Part shown: piece after piece, positions 41,222 through 47,508 of the stretch
Numbering within the stretch: position 1 is the stretch's first letter
Layout: each line of letters starts with the position of its first letter
From: Candidatus Nitrospira allomarina
GTDB taxonomy: Bacteria; Nitrospirota; Nitrospiria; Nitrospirales; UBA8639
Direction of reading: 5' to 3'
NCBI RefSeq assembly: GCF_032050975.1
Contig: NZ_CP116967.1
Location: forward strand, 2,291,001-2,355,000
Length of the DNA stretch: 64,000 nucleotides
Position numbers and translations under genes: made by a program
The notes under the pieces: model-generated
The model's database searches: none
The model's input: the letters and a program-made list of their open reading frames with translations, nothing else
Told to the model about the DNA's origin: nothing

Positions 41222-41773
41222 ATGAATCAGAGATTTATCGGATTGAGATTTCACATAGACACAAATCGGATTAATGCGAATCAAAATTTGGAGCATATGA
41301 ATCGGCTGGAACAGTGGGCAGCCAATGATGTGATAATGCTGGAGATGGCTGAGGTTGCGCAAACCGAAGCTATGGCAGGCGGAAACGAACGGCGGGCGGC
41401 GAAAGCGCTCAATTCTATTTACTCCGAAACGTTAGCCTCTACATCACAAGAGCGAAAAATGTTAGCGACAATCGAGAGGATTCTATTCCCCGAAGGGGCA
41501 GATGATCAGAACAAGCGCAATGACGTCGAAATCGTATTTAATGCGGCGAAGTATTGCAGTATTCTTGTAACTGCAGATGGCGATTCGAAGACCCAACCTA
41601 GGGGGATCTTGGGCAACGCAGAAGCTTTGAAAAAGGCTGTCGACGTCGAAATTATGCGGGACGCAGAGGCAGTAGAACGCGTCGAAAAAGGAATTCGCGT
41701 TAGAGATGCGCGTTGTCGGAGACGTTTTGAGCGGGAAGGTACCCTCATTCCTTATTGGGTAGGGCAGGATTGA
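41222..41773 (+). CDS. PIN-like nuclease-fold protein (orphan)
   Basis: The 183-residue protein has the spacing of PIN-domain acidic residues. An early Asp-Thr-Asn (FHIDTNRINANQN) opens a beta strand, a middle acidic segment has VIMLEMAEVAQTEAM, and a late LVTADGDSKTQ strand ends in Asp. PIN domains are RNA-cutting nucleases, often toxins of VapBC type. No antitoxin is next to it: the upstream side is a gap, the downstream neighbours are unrelated orphans. The C-terminus is a charged helical region (RVEKGIRVRDARCRRRF). The ATG has no clear ribosome site. The fold call is a careful inference. Confidence 0.45.
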   Translation: MNQRFIGLRFHIDTNRINANQNLEHMNRLEQWAANDVIMLEMAEVAQTEAMAGGNERRAAKALNSIYSETLASTSQERKMLATIERILFPEGADDQNKRNDVEIVFNAAKYCSILVTADGDSKTQPRGILGNAEALKKAVDVEIMRDAEAVERVEKGIRVRDARCRRRFEREGTLIPYWVGQD

Positions 41774-42091
41774 AAAAATGTTTTCTAACAGTGTGTTCAG
41801 GACGCTTGTCCGCTCCCTTCCAGCGCTGCTGTTCCGGTTGGTCGTGGTCAAGCGCTGTTAACATCACAACGTTTAGTGGACCGCAGGCCGCGGACCATAG
41901 GCAAAAAGGAATGAGGGTGGCCGTTCCTGCTTGAAGTGGGATGGAGGGAAAATTGGTGAGCGGTCAGCTGAAATCAGCCCGCGGCAGGGGCAGATCTCCA
42001 GTAGTCTGCTGAAGCCGAACGTGCGGTTCGAACAGATGAGCTTTTGACCCGCTACTCAAATGCGATTTTAAAAAAAGAGAAGGAAAAAGGT
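41774..42091. other. Gap with short hairpins, no gene
   Basis: About 320 bases between two orphan genes. It contains short dyads such as CGAAC(GTGCG)GTTCG near 42017-42031. I considered a mobile-intron fragment but could not fold its core. No open frame with a ribosome site lies here. Confidence 0.4.
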
Positions 42092-42562
42092 ATGAGTTAT
42101 CCTTATAAAAATGAGATCCACAATTTGGTTAAGGATGACTGCTGGAGCGGTTTCTTCCGCGATCCGGAAAAGAGCCCACGAGAGTTCCCACTTAGGCTCT
42201 CGGATTGTATTGGTCGAGCCGACTTTTGTTACGAATTTGAAGAATCTGGAAAACTATTTATAGAAGATGACGATGCGCCCCGAGCGATCAACAATCTAAT
42301 CAAGTACTGGAGGTGGTGCTTAGAACATCACGAAGAAAGACCAATTGTTTTGATACATATTATAGGAGACATGGGCGGGATTCAGATTGACCATTGTCAG
42401 TTTTTGAAAACCCGCATGGAGAAAGATCTGACAAAAAGCAAATTTCGTTATCACATAATCCAGATCGAGGGAAAAGCTAATGCCTGGGCCACTCCTGAGA
42501 GCTGGCTTGCCGAAGTGCGAAAGATTCTATCTGAAATTGCTTCGAACCGATCAGGGCAATGA
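42092..42562 (+). CDS. Orphan hypothetical protein
   Basis: No family is recognised for this 156-residue product. It is soluble and well balanced: a charged N-terminus (SYPYKNEIHNLVKDDC), a DFCYEFEESGKLFIEDDDAP acidic strand-like region, then NNLIKYWRWCLEHHEE and a hydrophobic strand IVLIHIIGDMGGIQ. The E-x-D-rich middle resembles nuclease-like folds but the evidence is weak. The start at 42092 follows AAGGAAAAAGGT. It forms part of an islet of unrelated genes with AT-rich composition, probably acquired. Confidence 0.6.
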   Translation: MSYPYKNEIHNLVKDDCWSGFFRDPEKSPREFPLRLSDCIGRADFCYEFEESGKLFIEDDDAPRAINNLIKYWRWCLEHHEERPIVLIHIIGDMGGIQIDHCQFLKTRMEKDLTKSKFRYHIIQIEGKANAWATPESWLAEVRKILSEIASNRSGQ

Positions 42563-42798
42563 AATGGTATGTTCCTAAAGGCGGGAAGCAATTTTGCGCA
42601 GAAGTTTCATTAACGCACTTCCAAATATATAATAATGACTATTTTATATTTACCGATTCTTTCGGAGGCTCAGCGCCTAACAAAGTCTTTACCTAACCCG
42701 CGCAAAAAGCCACACTGTCCAATTAATTAAGACCTTTGCCTCTTTTTCCAGCACCAGCGCCGTCAGTTGGGAACACATCTTCAAAAGTAAAGGATCAG

Positions 42799-43155
42799 AT
42801 GAAAATGGCGGAAGTATTATATAAAATCCCTCTTACACGTTGGGTGCGAGGAACCATGGAAAGAAATAATGCCGTGGGAAACGACGACATGGAGACATGG
42901 AGTAAATTTTGGTTAAAGACATACAAAGATTTAGGAGGCAATAGTGACAATTCAGGTTCGAAAGAATGTCCCAAGTATGCCGCATATGGTTTATGGCGAT
43001 TAGGCCGTATTTCCAACAGTGGGAAGGGTTTTCAAAACTGGACACTCGAAAGAATTAATGAAAAACTAGGGAAGAACGCGACTTATGCAGTCTTCGCGCT
43101 GGATCTGCTGGAACGAAAGCGTGGTGAACATGGTGGGGGGGGGAGTGTGGTCTAA
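42799..43155 (+). CDS. Orphan protein with a G9 tract near its 3' end
   Basis: No family is recognised. The product of this frame is 118 residues and ends in EHGGGGSVV, created by a run of nine Gs at 43135-43143. If one G were absent, the frame would run on to 43294, giving about 164 residues (continuing GGGVWSKAKLWGKVQNRYLK). The downstream extension is Lys-rich and protein-like, so either the short form is natural, the tract is a phase-variable switch, or the count is a sequencing or replication slip. The start at 42799 has AAAGGATCAG upstream; an upstream TTG is possible. Soluble, Trp- and Lys-rich. Confidence 0.55.
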   Translation: MKMAEVLYKIPLTRWVRGTMERNNAVGNDDMETWSKFWLKTYKDLGGNSDNSGSKECPKYAAYGLWRLGRISNSGKGFQNWTLERINEKLGKNATYAVFALDLLERKRGEHGGGGSVV

Positions 43156-43448: not shown

Positions 43449-44477
43449 ATGGCGAAATCCTTCCACCGCATTGGCGTGATTACCGGAGATCCTAGACTGA
43501 CAGATCCGACCAAACGCAATGCGCAATATAATGAAGAGGATACGGCGACGCACAATGCGATGAAGGCCGCCTTTCAGGAGCTTTCAGATTATACGTTTCT
43601 GTTTTATGACGACCATGCCCGTTTGTTTGAGCAGCTTCAGCAGGATCGTCCGGATCTAGTCGTCAATTTTTGTGATACGGGCTTTCGCAATGTGCCCGCT
43701 CAGGAACTCAACATTCCGGCTTATCTGGAGATGCTGGGGATTCCGTATACCGGAGCGCCGCCGTCGGCCATGGTTATCTGTTTTGATAAAGCCATTGTCC
43801 GACTCGTGGCGCAATCGCATGGCATCCCGGTTCCGCGTGAGTATTTTATCGAGGGTGGAGCGTCGCTTGAGGCCCTTCCCGAATTTTATCCTGCGTTGAT
43901 TAAACCCAATGCGGCTGATGGGAGTGTGGGTATTACGAAGGATGCCGTGGTCCGGTCGCCGGAGGAAGCGCGAACTTATCTGGACTGGTTACGCTCGACA
44001 CTTCCAGGTCGTGATGCGCTGATGCAGGAATATCTCCCCGGCCCGGAATATGGCATCGGAGTGATCGGCAATCTTGAAACGGGTTTCTGTATCCTGCCCA
44101 CCCTTGAGGTCGATTTCTCACGGCTTCCCTCAGGCCTCGATCCGATCTTGTCCTTTGAATCGAAGGCCTATCCGGACTCGCCCTACTGGACAGACATCAA
44201 ATTCAAACAGGCTGTTCTCGATCCGGGTCTTGAGGATCGAATGAAAGACTGGGTTCGGATCTTGTTCCGGAGGTTTCAGTTGCGTGACTATGCACGGTTT
44301 GATTTTCGTGTCGGATCGGACAATATGCCGAAACTGATGGAGGTGAATCCGAATCCCGCGTGGGCTTACGACGGGAAGCTGGCCTTTATGGCGGGATTTG
44401 CGGGAATCAAATATGGAGAGATGTTACACAAGATTCTCCAGGCGGCCATTACCCGGCAATCAGTCGCAACCAATTAG
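43449..44477 (+). CDS. D-Ala-D-Ala ligase-like ATP-grasp protein
   Basis: The 342-residue protein is an ATP-grasp ligase of the D-alanine-D-alanine ligase type. It has the N-terminal pre-ATP-grasp region (DLVVNFCDTGFRNVPAQELN, then LGIPYTGAPPSAMVICFDKA), the ATP-binding part (YPALIKPNAADGSVGITKDA and LMQEYLPGPEYGIGVIGNLE), and the Mg site (DYARFDFRVGSDNMPKLMEV, ending NPNPAW). The family joins a carboxylate to an amine by an acyl-phosphate. It lacks any visible Ddl neighbour such as a murein cluster. Its stop codon overlaps the stop of a convergent hydrolase gene by 3 bp, and the next gene beyond is a second ATP-grasp-like protein. The three may handle an unusual peptide; this is inference. 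Confidence 0.85.
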   Translation: MAKSFHRIGVITGDPRLTDPTKRNAQYNEEDTATHNAMKAAFQELSDYTFLFYDDHARLFEQLQQDRPDLVVNFCDTGFRNVPAQELNIPAYLEMLGIPYTGAPPSAMVICFDKAIVRLVAQSHGIPVPREYFIEGGASLEALPEFYPALIKPNAADGSVGITKDAVVRSPEEARTYLDWLRSTLPGRDALMQEYLPGPEYGIGVIGNLETGFCILPTLEVDFSRLPSGLDPILSFESKAYPDSPYWTDIKFKQAVLDPGLEDRMKDWVRILFRRFQLRDYARFDFRVGSDNMPKLMEVNPNPAWAYDGKLAFMAGFAGIKYGEMLHKILQAAITRQSVATN

Positions 44478-46507
44478 AGAAGCGACCGTGGAATCGCCAG
44501 TGCCCAGTCATGTCGTTTGATCAGTTGATCGCCGTGATAGGCTTCCAATTCTCCCGCAAACTGAAAGGTTTCGGTCGTGGCGGTGAGCCGTGTCCGACAT
44601 TCCAGCCAAATCGACCAGTCCCGTCGTTTCAAGTGGGCGGTCTGTGTGAGTTCCGTTTGAGCCGACAGCGCATCCTTTTCAAGAATCCGATATCGTTTAA
44701 AGAGGGTGTATCCCACATCGAGATCAATCTCTTCAATCCTGGCGTGTGAGGCGCCGTCAAATTCTCCCCCGTCACTTCGTAACGTGTAGACCATTTCGTT
44801 GCTTGCCAGATCGATTTCAATGGTTCGCCGCATGCTGAGCTGCCGGAGTTTTTTATGCGGGGTGCCGGGCGCGGCTTCGGGTGGCCCGAACGGCCGTAGC
44901 GCTTCGTCTTCCTGGCGGGGAGGGCGCACGGGAAGGGTTACATGGCTCATGCCAGTGCGGACGGTCAACGTCACGGGAACAGGTGGCGGCCAGGCAATCG
45001 GCCAATAACTGGTGGACAGTGAGAGCCTGATCCGGGAGCCCGGAGGGAACGCATGGGCAAAGTCGTTGAGTTGCACCCGTACCTGATACCATTTACCCGG
45101 TTCGAGCGGTTGAGGTGTTTCATGACTCTCCCGATGCGTGAGATTCAATAGTCCATATGTGACACGCAGAACCGATCCGTCGGGAGCGACTTCTCCCAGA
45201 CGGACAGCGATCATTGCCACCGGTTGATTAACGCACAAATCCAGTTCCACGACCGGTGCGCCCAAGACTTCAAGTCGTTCGGTGAGTGGATCGCTATCGA
45301 AGACGAGCGAACCGCCATCGTCGGGTCGTTGATCGCGCGGCATTTCCCCATCCGCGCCGAAACCGCACCATTCTCCGGACCGGACCCCGGTAGTCTGGGG
45401 AGAGCAAAACGACAATTCCGTGGGTTTCTCAGGAAGAGGGGAGAGATGTCCCGGTTCCAAAAACCACCGTTGCTCGTTGATGCGAGGACTCGGCCAGGTC
45501 TCTTCCGCTACCCATCTGCCGGGCCAGACGGCGTATTGGGGTTGTGGGGTCTGACTCTCTTGCATCCATACTCGAAATGCGGGTTCATCCATGATTCCTG
45601 TTTCCTCGCCCTTCAACCAGTGGTTCCACCACCGGACCGCTTCCTGCAGAAAGCCGATGGCCGGGCCGGGGACGCCGTCCTGTGGAAAGACATGGGCCCA
45701 GGGACCGATGAGCGATTTTTTCGGACAGGAAAGATGGGTCATCAATCGGGGAATGGCATTGGTATAGCCATCGGCCCAGCCACCAATGGCATAGACGGGA
45801 CAGCGAATGGCGTCGTAATTTTCGCACACCGAGCCATGTTTCCAATAATTGTCCCGCGATTGGTGCCGCATCCAGACCACAGGAAACGGTTCGAGATTGT
45901 TTAACCGTTGTTGCCACATGTCCCACCATTGGTCACCGACAATTTCCGGATCGGGTGGCAGCGCCGAGTAGAGGGTCAGCATGGAACCCCATTGCATATT
46001 TTCGTTCAAGAGGCAGCCGCCCATATAATGCGCGTCATCGGCGTACCGGTCATCCGTTGAACACAAGGTCATGATGGCTTTCAAATTCGACGGATTCCTG
46101 GCAGCGATCTGGAGGGCATTAAATCCGCCCCACGAAATCCCCATCATCCCGATCGCGCCCGAACACCAGGGTTGTTTCGCGATCCAGGTGATCACTTCCA
46201 AGGCGTCGTCATGCTCCTGATGGGAGTATTCATCATGCAGGATCCCTTCTGAATCCCCTGATCCTCGAATATCCACGCGAATACTGGCATACCCATGCGC
46301 CGCAAAATACCGGTGGATGGGCTCGTCCCGTGATCGCATAAAGTCCCGTTTACGATAGGGGATGTATTCCAAAATGGCCGGAACCGGCTCCGTATCGGCG
46401 GTCTTCGGTAACCAGATGCGTGCGGCGATTCGGCATCCGTCCGACATCGTAATCCAGGTGTTTTCGATTTCGGTAATGCGGTCGAGGATGGTGTAATCGA
46501 TAAGCAT
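44474..46507 (-). CDS. CocE/NonD family hydrolase (X-Pro dipeptidyl-peptidase S15 type)
   Basis: The 677-residue enzyme is an alpha/beta hydrolase of the CocE/NonD or PepX group that cleaves esters or prolyl peptides. The nucleophile is Ser125 in GISWGGFNA. The N-terminal strand has RIAARIWLPKTADTEPVPA and the catalytic region YASIRVDIRGSGDSEGI. The general-base His is probably in IGPWAHVFPQDG. A C-terminal jelly-roll domain (VVELDLCVNQPVAMIAVRLG) completes the family layout. The ATG at 46507 follows an AGAG site; an upstream in-frame TTG adds one residue. It lies 14 bp downstream of an ATP-grasp-like gene in the same direction, so the two are probably one operon. Confidence 0.9.
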   Translation of the reverse strand: MLIDYTILDRITEIENTWITMSDGCRIAARIWLPKTADTEPVPAILEYIPYRKRDFMRSRDEPIHRYFAAHGYASIRVDIRGSGDSEGILHDEYSHQEHDDALEVITWIAKQPWCSGAIGMMGISWGGFNALQIAARNPSNLKAIMTLCSTDDRYADDAHYMGGCLLNENMQWGSMLTLYSALPPDPEIVGDQWWDMWQQRLNNLEPFPVVWMRHQSRDNYWKHGSVCENYDAIRCPVYAIGGWADGYTNAIPRLMTHLSCPKKSLIGPWAHVFPQDGVPGPAIGFLQEAVRWWNHWLKGEETGIMDEPAFRVWMQESQTPQPQYAVWPGRWVAEETWPSPRINEQRWFLEPGHLSPLPEKPTELSFCSPQTTGVRSGEWCGFGADGEMPRDQRPDDGGSLVFDSDPLTERLEVLGAPVVELDLCVNQPVAMIAVRLGEVAPDGSVLRVTYGLLNLTHRESHETPQPLEPGKWYQVRVQLNDFAHAFPPGSRIRLSLSTSYWPIAWPPPVPVTLTVRTGMSHVTLPVRPPRQEDEALRPFGPPEAAPGTPHKKLRQLSMRRTIEIDLASNEMVYTLRSDGGEFDGASHARIEEIDLDVGYTLFKRYRILEKDALSAQTELTQTAHLKRRDWSIWLECRTRLTATTETFQFAGELEAYHGDQLIKRHDWALAIPRSLL

Positions 46508-46521
46508 CAAAACTCTCTGAG

Positions 46522-47508
46522 TTATTCGACAGTCTGTTCATGGCGTTCCGCAGCGGAGTCGCGGAGAGTTTTTGGAGCGGGGGGGCGATTGGGTTGAAAC
46601 TGATGAGTGGACCAAAAACTCAATGCCAGCTTTTTTCTGACTTCAAATCCCGTTTCAAGATCCCAGCAGTTGACGATAGCCAGACGAAATCCGCCTGGCG
46701 GCATGGAGTGGTCCTTCGGTGGTTTCTCTTCATGGAACGTGATCTGAATGCTGGAGACGTGTGGTGTTTGGCGCAACTGGGCAATCACCTCTTTGGGTGG
46801 ATGCTGATAATGGACGCCATGGGCGCCAAACAAGACGACACTGTACCCTTCCTGTCGATGGGAATCATCAAATTGCCATTGTTCTTCCGCATACAGCCGA
46901 ACGAGGGACCCAACCCAACCGGCGCCGTACAAATCCGGCCATTGGTCTGCAAATCGTAAATGTACCTCGATGATTTTGCCACCGATCGTCTCGAAGTTAA
47001 TCATGCCGGTGTATCCGGCAAGATGCCGGCGCAGCCAGTCGTCACAGTAGGCTTCGATGGTTGGAATTGGCGTTGCCAACACCGTCCAATAATCGAACAT
47101 TCCTCCTTCCAACGGTTTGCCCGTGGCATGTCGCCACCAGTGGGGTTCGCCCTTAACCACCGCGACGTCGCTGGACACATGATCGCCTTGGAGTAACGGC
47201 ATCCACATGTGTCCCGGCCGTTCCAAATGTTTGTATTCTTTTAATGAACGCAACACGCGGCTCCCGGCACCCATGCCGCGCATGTTGTAAATCGGTTTGG
47301 AAAACACGGGAAAGAAGGATGGATCCAGCCCATGCGGAGCACACGGCAGGTTCTGGCTCTCGGCAATCATCAGTTTGTTATAGATCCACTTATACTGTGG
47401 GTACCATGCCCAGGCATCGCCGTCTTCGGTAGGGATGTTGACTTCCGGCGGGCATGGAATGCCCTCGAAAAATTGCATTCTCCAGGGATCAGCTTCACAA
47501 ATCGGCAT
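46522..47508 (-). CDS. ATP-grasp-like protein of unknown function
   Basis: The 328-residue protein shares loose ATP-grasp features: a KPIYNMRGMGAGSRVL loop, a central HMWMPLLQGDHVSSDVAVV region, and a metal-site-like strand (MINFETIGGKIIEVHLRFAD). The usual KPxxGSxG loop is modified, so activity needs testing. The remaining part is rich in Trp and aromatic residues (DAWAWYPQYKWIYNKLMIAE). The start at 47508 has an AAGGATGAGG site. It heads the operon with the CocE/NonD hydrolase. Possibly a peptide-forming or amide-forming ligase whose product the hydrolase can process; that is a guess based on order only. Confidence 0.6.
   Translation of the reverse strand: MPICEADPWRMQFFEGIPCPPEVNIPTEDGDAWAWYPQYKWIYNKLMIAESQNLPCAPHGLDPSFFPVFSKPIYNMRGMGAGSRVLRSLKEYKHLERPGHMWMPLLQGDHVSSDVAVVKGEPHWWRHATGKPLEGGMFDYWTVLATPIPTIEAYCDDWLRRHLAGYTGMINFETIGGKIIEVHLRFADQWPDLYGAGWVGSLVRLYAEEQWQFDDSHRQEGYSVVLFGAHGVHYQHPPKEVIAQLRQTPHVSSIQITFHEEKPPKDHSMPPGGFRLAIVNCWDLETGFEVRKKLALSFWSTHQFQPNRPPAPKTLRDSAAERHEQTVE

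Follow-up and report, generated by a model that had tools for sequence, protein, structure and literature searches.

What do two ATP-grasp ligase genes and a gene for a CocE/NonD hydrolase accomplish side by side in the genome of Candidatus Nitrospira allomarina? ATP-grasp ligases are known to produce many unexpected peptides, amides and tags, and an earlier note on this DNA had proposed the synthesis and turnover of an unusual peptide or amide. The window, which is the whole stretch of 64,000 nucleotides that was analysed, comes from a genome of one contig (4.55 Mb). The three open reading frames listed in that note were all found at the positions and on the strands given there, and are referred to here as genes A, B and C (Table 1). 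The convergent overlap of A and B was likewise found in its place, but it measures 4 bp instead of the 3 bp given earlier, with 2 bp common to both stop codons.

Table 1. Positions of the three genes and of the A/B overlap in the window
Feature	Position	Strand	Details
Gene A, Ddl-like ATP-grasp ligase	43449..44477	+	ATG 43449; stop TAG 44475-44477; 342 aa; converges on B
Gene B, CocE/NonD (S15, PepX_C) alpha/beta hydrolase	44474..46510	-	678 aa; stop TAA (minus strand) 44474-44476
Gene C, ATP-grasp family without a name	46522..47508	-	ATG 47508; stop 46522-46524; 328 aa; first gene of the likely C-B operon
Tail-to-tail overlap of A and B	44474..44477	.	4 bp, from sequence

The more likely start of B is the ATG at 46507, one codon after the TTG at 46510. 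The gap between C and B is 11-14 bp, and the two genes, C followed by B on the minus strand, likely form a two-gene operon. Compared with the sibling genome (locus L075), A, B and C show dN/dS values of 0.05-0.08, indicative of strong purifying selection; thus, they are real genes maintained by selection within the genus. As a separate observation, dS against this sibling drops within 4 kb from 0.51 in A through 0.31 in B to 0.10 in C, a gradient that would fit recombinational exchange of part of the locus. Upstream of A, several short open reading frames occupy positions 41222-43155, and the two tested (41222-41773 and 42044-42562) matched no Pfam family.

Gene A had been called D-Ala-D-Ala ligase-like, which holds for its fold and family. 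Its product scores about 44-44.9 bits against PF07478 (Dala_Dala_lig_C), passing the gathering cut-off of 24, and its AlphaFold2 model (mean pLDDT 88) was predicted by Foldseek to resemble D-Ala-D-Ala ligases best (E 4e-20, TM about 0.7). The ATP- and Mg-binding residues K114, K152, D285, E298 and N300 are invariant in the alignment of A relatives (A2). Like the Ddl/VanA-type D-alanine ligases, with which it shares the fold and these residues, A keeps the acyl-phosphate-site arginine (R255 of Ddl) and the serine of the Gly-loop (S150). However, A is no Ddl: it falls below every cut-off of the curated Ddl/Van models, the best score being 83.2 against a required 243 bits. In a profile alignment with E. 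coli DdlB (1iov) and VanA, the acceptor-site Tyr216 becomes Ala/Asp-like (KY to K-A), and the PGMTSHS loop (PGMT-x-HS), which in Ddl holds the second D-Ala, reads PNPAW-x-x-DGK. Judging from its sequence, A appears to retain Ddl-like chemistry, yet is not to be classed as a Ddl. Another gene of the same genome scores 180.7 bits against PF07478, versus 44.9 for A, so the housekeeping Ddl role is probably filled elsewhere in the genome. The same genome contains a second Ddl-like ATP-grasp gene of 340 aa (L076:6317-8391, that is, G000:C1:2744317-2746391), which shares 4 bp with the end of a gene of weak similarity to the zinc metallopeptidase family PF15887 (26 bits, cut-off 27), making another ligase/hydrolase pair.

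The assignment of B to the CocE/NonD (S15-type) hydrolases was borne out, with 254 bits against TIGR00976 (cut-off 66), 222 bits against PF02129 and 153 bits against PF08530. S126, D247 and H273 do not vary among 12 relatives, their equivalence to the catalytic triad being assigned by motif, and the closest solved structures are cocaine esterase and alpha-amino-acid ester hydrolase. B thus has both domains and the triad of cocaine esterase, alpha-amino-acid ester hydrolase and the S15 family, and differs from them in about 150 extra C-terminal residues beyond PepX_C and in its linkage to two ATP-grasp ligase genes. No signal sequence is evident by eye at the N-terminus, and B therefore probably acts in the cytosol. 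Substrates of the CocE/S15 family are esters and short peptides; CocE-family hydrolases are promiscuous, and annotation alone does not give the substrate.

Gene C is the least familiar member of the trio. Neither C nor 12 of its relatives matched a Pfam or NCBIfam family at a meaningful level, and a profile search of the PDB with C returned nothing; complement factor D, the sole phmmer match in the PDB (E about 0.1), was dismissed as chance. The ATP-grasp fold suspected for this protein was nevertheless found by structure prediction. An AlphaFold2 model built from 12 aligned relatives (mean pLDDT 80) gave 385 Foldseek matches in the PDB with E <= 0.001, and all 50 that were listed are ATP-grasp enzymes. 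The top matches are the L-amino-acid ligase BL00235 (3vot, E 2e-11), PylC and RizA, and PurK and biotin carboxylase were also found; with TM about 0.5-0.57 and high rmsd, the likeness is one of fold. By its predicted structure, C is an ATP-grasp protein. The motif order Y-N-K ... K-P-x-x-N ... S-(S/T)-D ... N-x-E ... E-x-H-L-R is kept in 41 aligned rows, with K45 conserved in 40, K71 in 38, E173 in 41, E181 in 39 and R185 in 41 of them, and with D114 and H183 likewise invariant or nearly so. These motifs appear to correspond to the two ATP lysines, the Gly-rich loop and the acidic Mg ligands of ATP-grasp enzymes, an equivalence drawn from motif order and position, not from superposition.

An N-terminal preATP-grasp domain is usual in the ATP-grasp superfamily. 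In C, only about 45 mostly helical residues precede the first ATP-grasp lysine (K45), and a full preATP-grasp domain is therefore absent. This absence lowers the resemblance of C to L-amino-acid ligases and leaves its membership of the superfamily unaffected. Although BL00235, RizA and PylC are its best structural matches (E 2e-11 to 5e-11) and share its motif order, they are 11-18% identical to C and differ from it in this N-terminal region. Many relatives have E-x-N-x-R where C has an invariant E-x-H-x-R. A divergent C subfamily, about 31-34% identical to C and starting MPFHGV/MPFYGV-x-P-x-R, was observed in Gammaproteobacteria (L134-L138), with neither A nor B nearby.

Is the arrangement of the three genes conserved? 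One scan of 84,980 species genomes together with sampled class searches yielded over 30 C loci. Ten of them, spanning Nitrospirota, Alphaproteobacteria and Gammaproteobacteria, have C followed by B with A converging: the window, L075 (genome G191), L014, L016, L017, L018, L019, L054, L055 and L132. The conserved neighbourhood on which the earlier proposal depended is thus present. The ends of A and B are spaced by -4 bp in the window, L075, L014 and L054, by 3 bp in L019, 4 bp in L016 and L018, 8 bp in L017, 13 bp in L132 and 82 bp in L055, which puts nine of the ten in the range -4 to +13 bp. In five further loci (L013, L015, L020, L130 and L131) C and B are present and the contig ends before a possible A. 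Other loci are partial: C-B with A not nearby (L060, L065); A adjoining C with no B (L057, L058), in L058 directly downstream of a gene for an S9 prolyl oligopeptidase, a serine peptidase of alpha/beta-hydrolase fold; A at 4.5 kb (L056); and, in SAR324 (L021/L074), an A homologue fused to a methyltransferase at 5.4 kb. Many Alphaproteobacteria (L059, L061-L064, L066-L073) have C with neither A nor B nearby, and C therefore has a role independent of the trio.

Because the same layout recurs across phyla, it is more than chance. The view that A, B and C have separate functions, being neighbours by accident or merely co-inherited, draws on the finding of A and of C each alone in other genomes. 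However, gene order and near-zero A/B spacing are kept across phyla at 57-75% protein identity (the range between the window and most alphaproteobacterial counterparts) while the flanks differ. In addition, among 385 sampled Alphaproteobacteria, C was found in 21 and a strongly A-like enzyme (E below 1e-139) in 16, and six of these 16 also have C, versus about one expected (hypergeometric 7e-5, phylogeny ignored); in these six genomes A and C are no more than about 7 kb apart, and every one of the closest A genes in the sample is found within about 5 kb of C. Separate functions are thus improbable. A count of six of six A orthologs lying beside C no longer serves as main evidence, as those genes had partly gone into the A profile; six of 16 is the less circular figure. 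For the remaining ten of the 16 A-like genes the open reading frames are about 450 to 745 aa long, and the ones examined among the A-like genes without C (L102-L111) have the same N-terminal region as the SAR324 fusion. In that fusion (L074:8734-10677), the A-like ATP-grasp domain follows an N-terminal SAM methyltransferase, verified by Pfam in SAR324 only.

How did the trio come to be in Nitrospirota? The co-occurrence that the earlier note proposed to search for in this phylum does exist, but it is rare, and most trio loci belong to Alpha- and Gammaproteobacteria. A single-sequence search recovered full-length C in two of 296 sampled Nitrospirota genomes, both of one genus, and C is absent from a third genome of this genus; the 84,980-genome scan added two Nitrospirales MAG contigs, and two further short matches (E about 1e-3) were judged chance. 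Among the 41 C proteins placed in a tree, those from Nitrospirota (four rows) group as one clade (100/100), next to Kiloniellales (98/83) and within a mostly alphaproteobacterial group. The tree is midpoint-rooted, and the direction of transfer rests on distribution. The simplest reading is that the Nitrospirota trio was probably acquired horizontally from Alphaproteobacteria. When an empty site was sought in the trio-less genome G231 of the same genus, no flank homologous to the trio locus was found, and none of the plasmid records encodes C.

Several genes recur around the trio. A RimK gene adjoins C in the gammaproteobacterial locus L132 and lies within about 5 kb of C in SAR324 (L074), and in L106 a RimK of 57% identity is found at 6.5 kb from the fused A. 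Between C and B in L017 are an RloB-type inactive transglutaminase with seven TM helices and a TIGR02291 glutamate-ligase-like protein, and the SAR324 cluster also contains a MATCAP carboxypeptidase and two AspA-like hydrolases. RimK, Rlo, MATCAP and AspA-like neighbours are settings where ATP-grasp amidoligases and peptidases occur. One ortholog group of SLC13/ArsB-like permeases (48-60% identity) adjoins C or A in L056, L057 and L058 and the fused A in L102, and an MFS transporter group is found upstream of C in L015, L016 and L131. The PADLOC defence-system library gave no match for A, B or C. In four related Alphaproteobacteria (L059, L061, L062 and L067), egtB-egtD, for ergothioneine synthesis, are divergent from C; these loci form one clade of the C tree and have no nearby A or B, and ergothioneine was rejected as the function of the trio in favour of a lineage trait.

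Such neighbours raise the idea of a protein tag, which would be written by A and/or C through the addition of amino acids to a protein, in the manner of RimK on ribosomal protein S6, and erased by B, in the manner of RimB. The RimK or RimK-like ligases near the trio in SAR324, the gammaproteobacterium and L017, the MATCAP and AspA-like enzymes of SAR324 and the experimentally proven RimK-RimB pair of ATP-grasp ligase and peptidase (PMC11957791) all speak for it. The nearest relatives of A in fold and sequence (Ddl, VanA) and the top structural matches of C (BL00235, RizA, PylC), however, ligate free small molecules, and B belongs to CocE/S15, which acts on esters and short peptides, and is not a RimB-like endoprotease; we consider a protein tag unlikely. 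The recurring transporters suit a secondary-metabolite pathway of antimetabolite type, in which a bioactive amino acid would be built by the ligases into an inert peptide, to be freed again by B, and small ATP-grasp ligases do make dipeptides such as the phosphonoalamides (PMC11867202). Dedicated precursor biosynthesis genes do not recur beside the trio, the flanks of which vary by lineage, and such a pathway seems somewhat less likely still.

The best reading makes the trio a single amidoligase module that is mobile by horizontal transfer. Sequence, structure prediction and synteny establish the enzyme classes of A, B and C, their intact catalytic residues and their linkage. Somewhat in favour on balance is a single pathway in which A and C make a small peptide or amide that B turns over. 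Each ligase would use ATP to turn a carboxylate into an acyl phosphate, to which an amine is then coupled. A and C may in this way together form two bonds within a single small peptide or amide, or attach two units to an acceptor. B would then cleave the product, or an activated or ester form of it, in the cytosol, resulting in turnover or release, and the SLC13/ArsB-like or MFS transporter, where one adjoins, probably moves the product or a precursor. Counted for the one-pathway reading were the ten-locus layout, the folds of C and A, the RimK and permease neighbours, the A-C pairs without B and the purifying selection. Counted against it were the frequent occurrence of C alone, the A-like genes without C, which are usually longer with an N-terminal methyltransferase, and the promiscuity of CocE enzymes. 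Of the two outcomes that the earlier note named as refuting its proposal, neither was observed: C has the ATP-grasp fold in its predicted structure, and the gene neighbourhood is conserved. The proposal is partly supported, with the trio rare in Nitrospirota and A no Ddl, and peptide or amide synthesis and turnover is still the best inference. A bolder version, put forward tentatively, is that C represents a new ATP-grasp family without a preATP-grasp domain of its own and joins A and B in making and recycling a novel peptide metabolite or protein tag shared horizontally among Nitrospirota, Proteobacteria and SAR324.

Three genes kept together across phyla, with a hydrolase among them and an ATP-grasp family that Pfam and NCBIfam lack, form a compact unit small enough to be tested in the search for a new metabolite or modification. 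Two cultured strains, Afifella sp. IM 167 and Oceanibacterium hippocampi, contain members, and tests can therefore proceed independently of the slow-growing nitrite oxidisers.

How does the trio compare with known systems? Amidoligase systems that combine a ligase with a peptidase are a known kind. What appears to be new here, within that kind, is the pairing of an ATP-grasp family without a name with a CocE-type hydrolase, in a convergent arrangement that is conserved; a literature search for CocE with ATP-grasp found no description of such a trio, the amidoligase survey of Iyer et al. (2009) being outside the comparison. The trio shares the logic of ATP-grasp ligase plus peptidase with RimK-RimB and with the Rlo system (RloA-RloB-RloC; PMC12239564), and RimK, RloB and RloC-like genes are found near it in some genomes. 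Unlike these systems, it has no retropepsin, its hydrolase being a serine enzyme (S15), and neither of its ligases, the Ddl-like A and the member of a family without a name, C, matches the RimK models.
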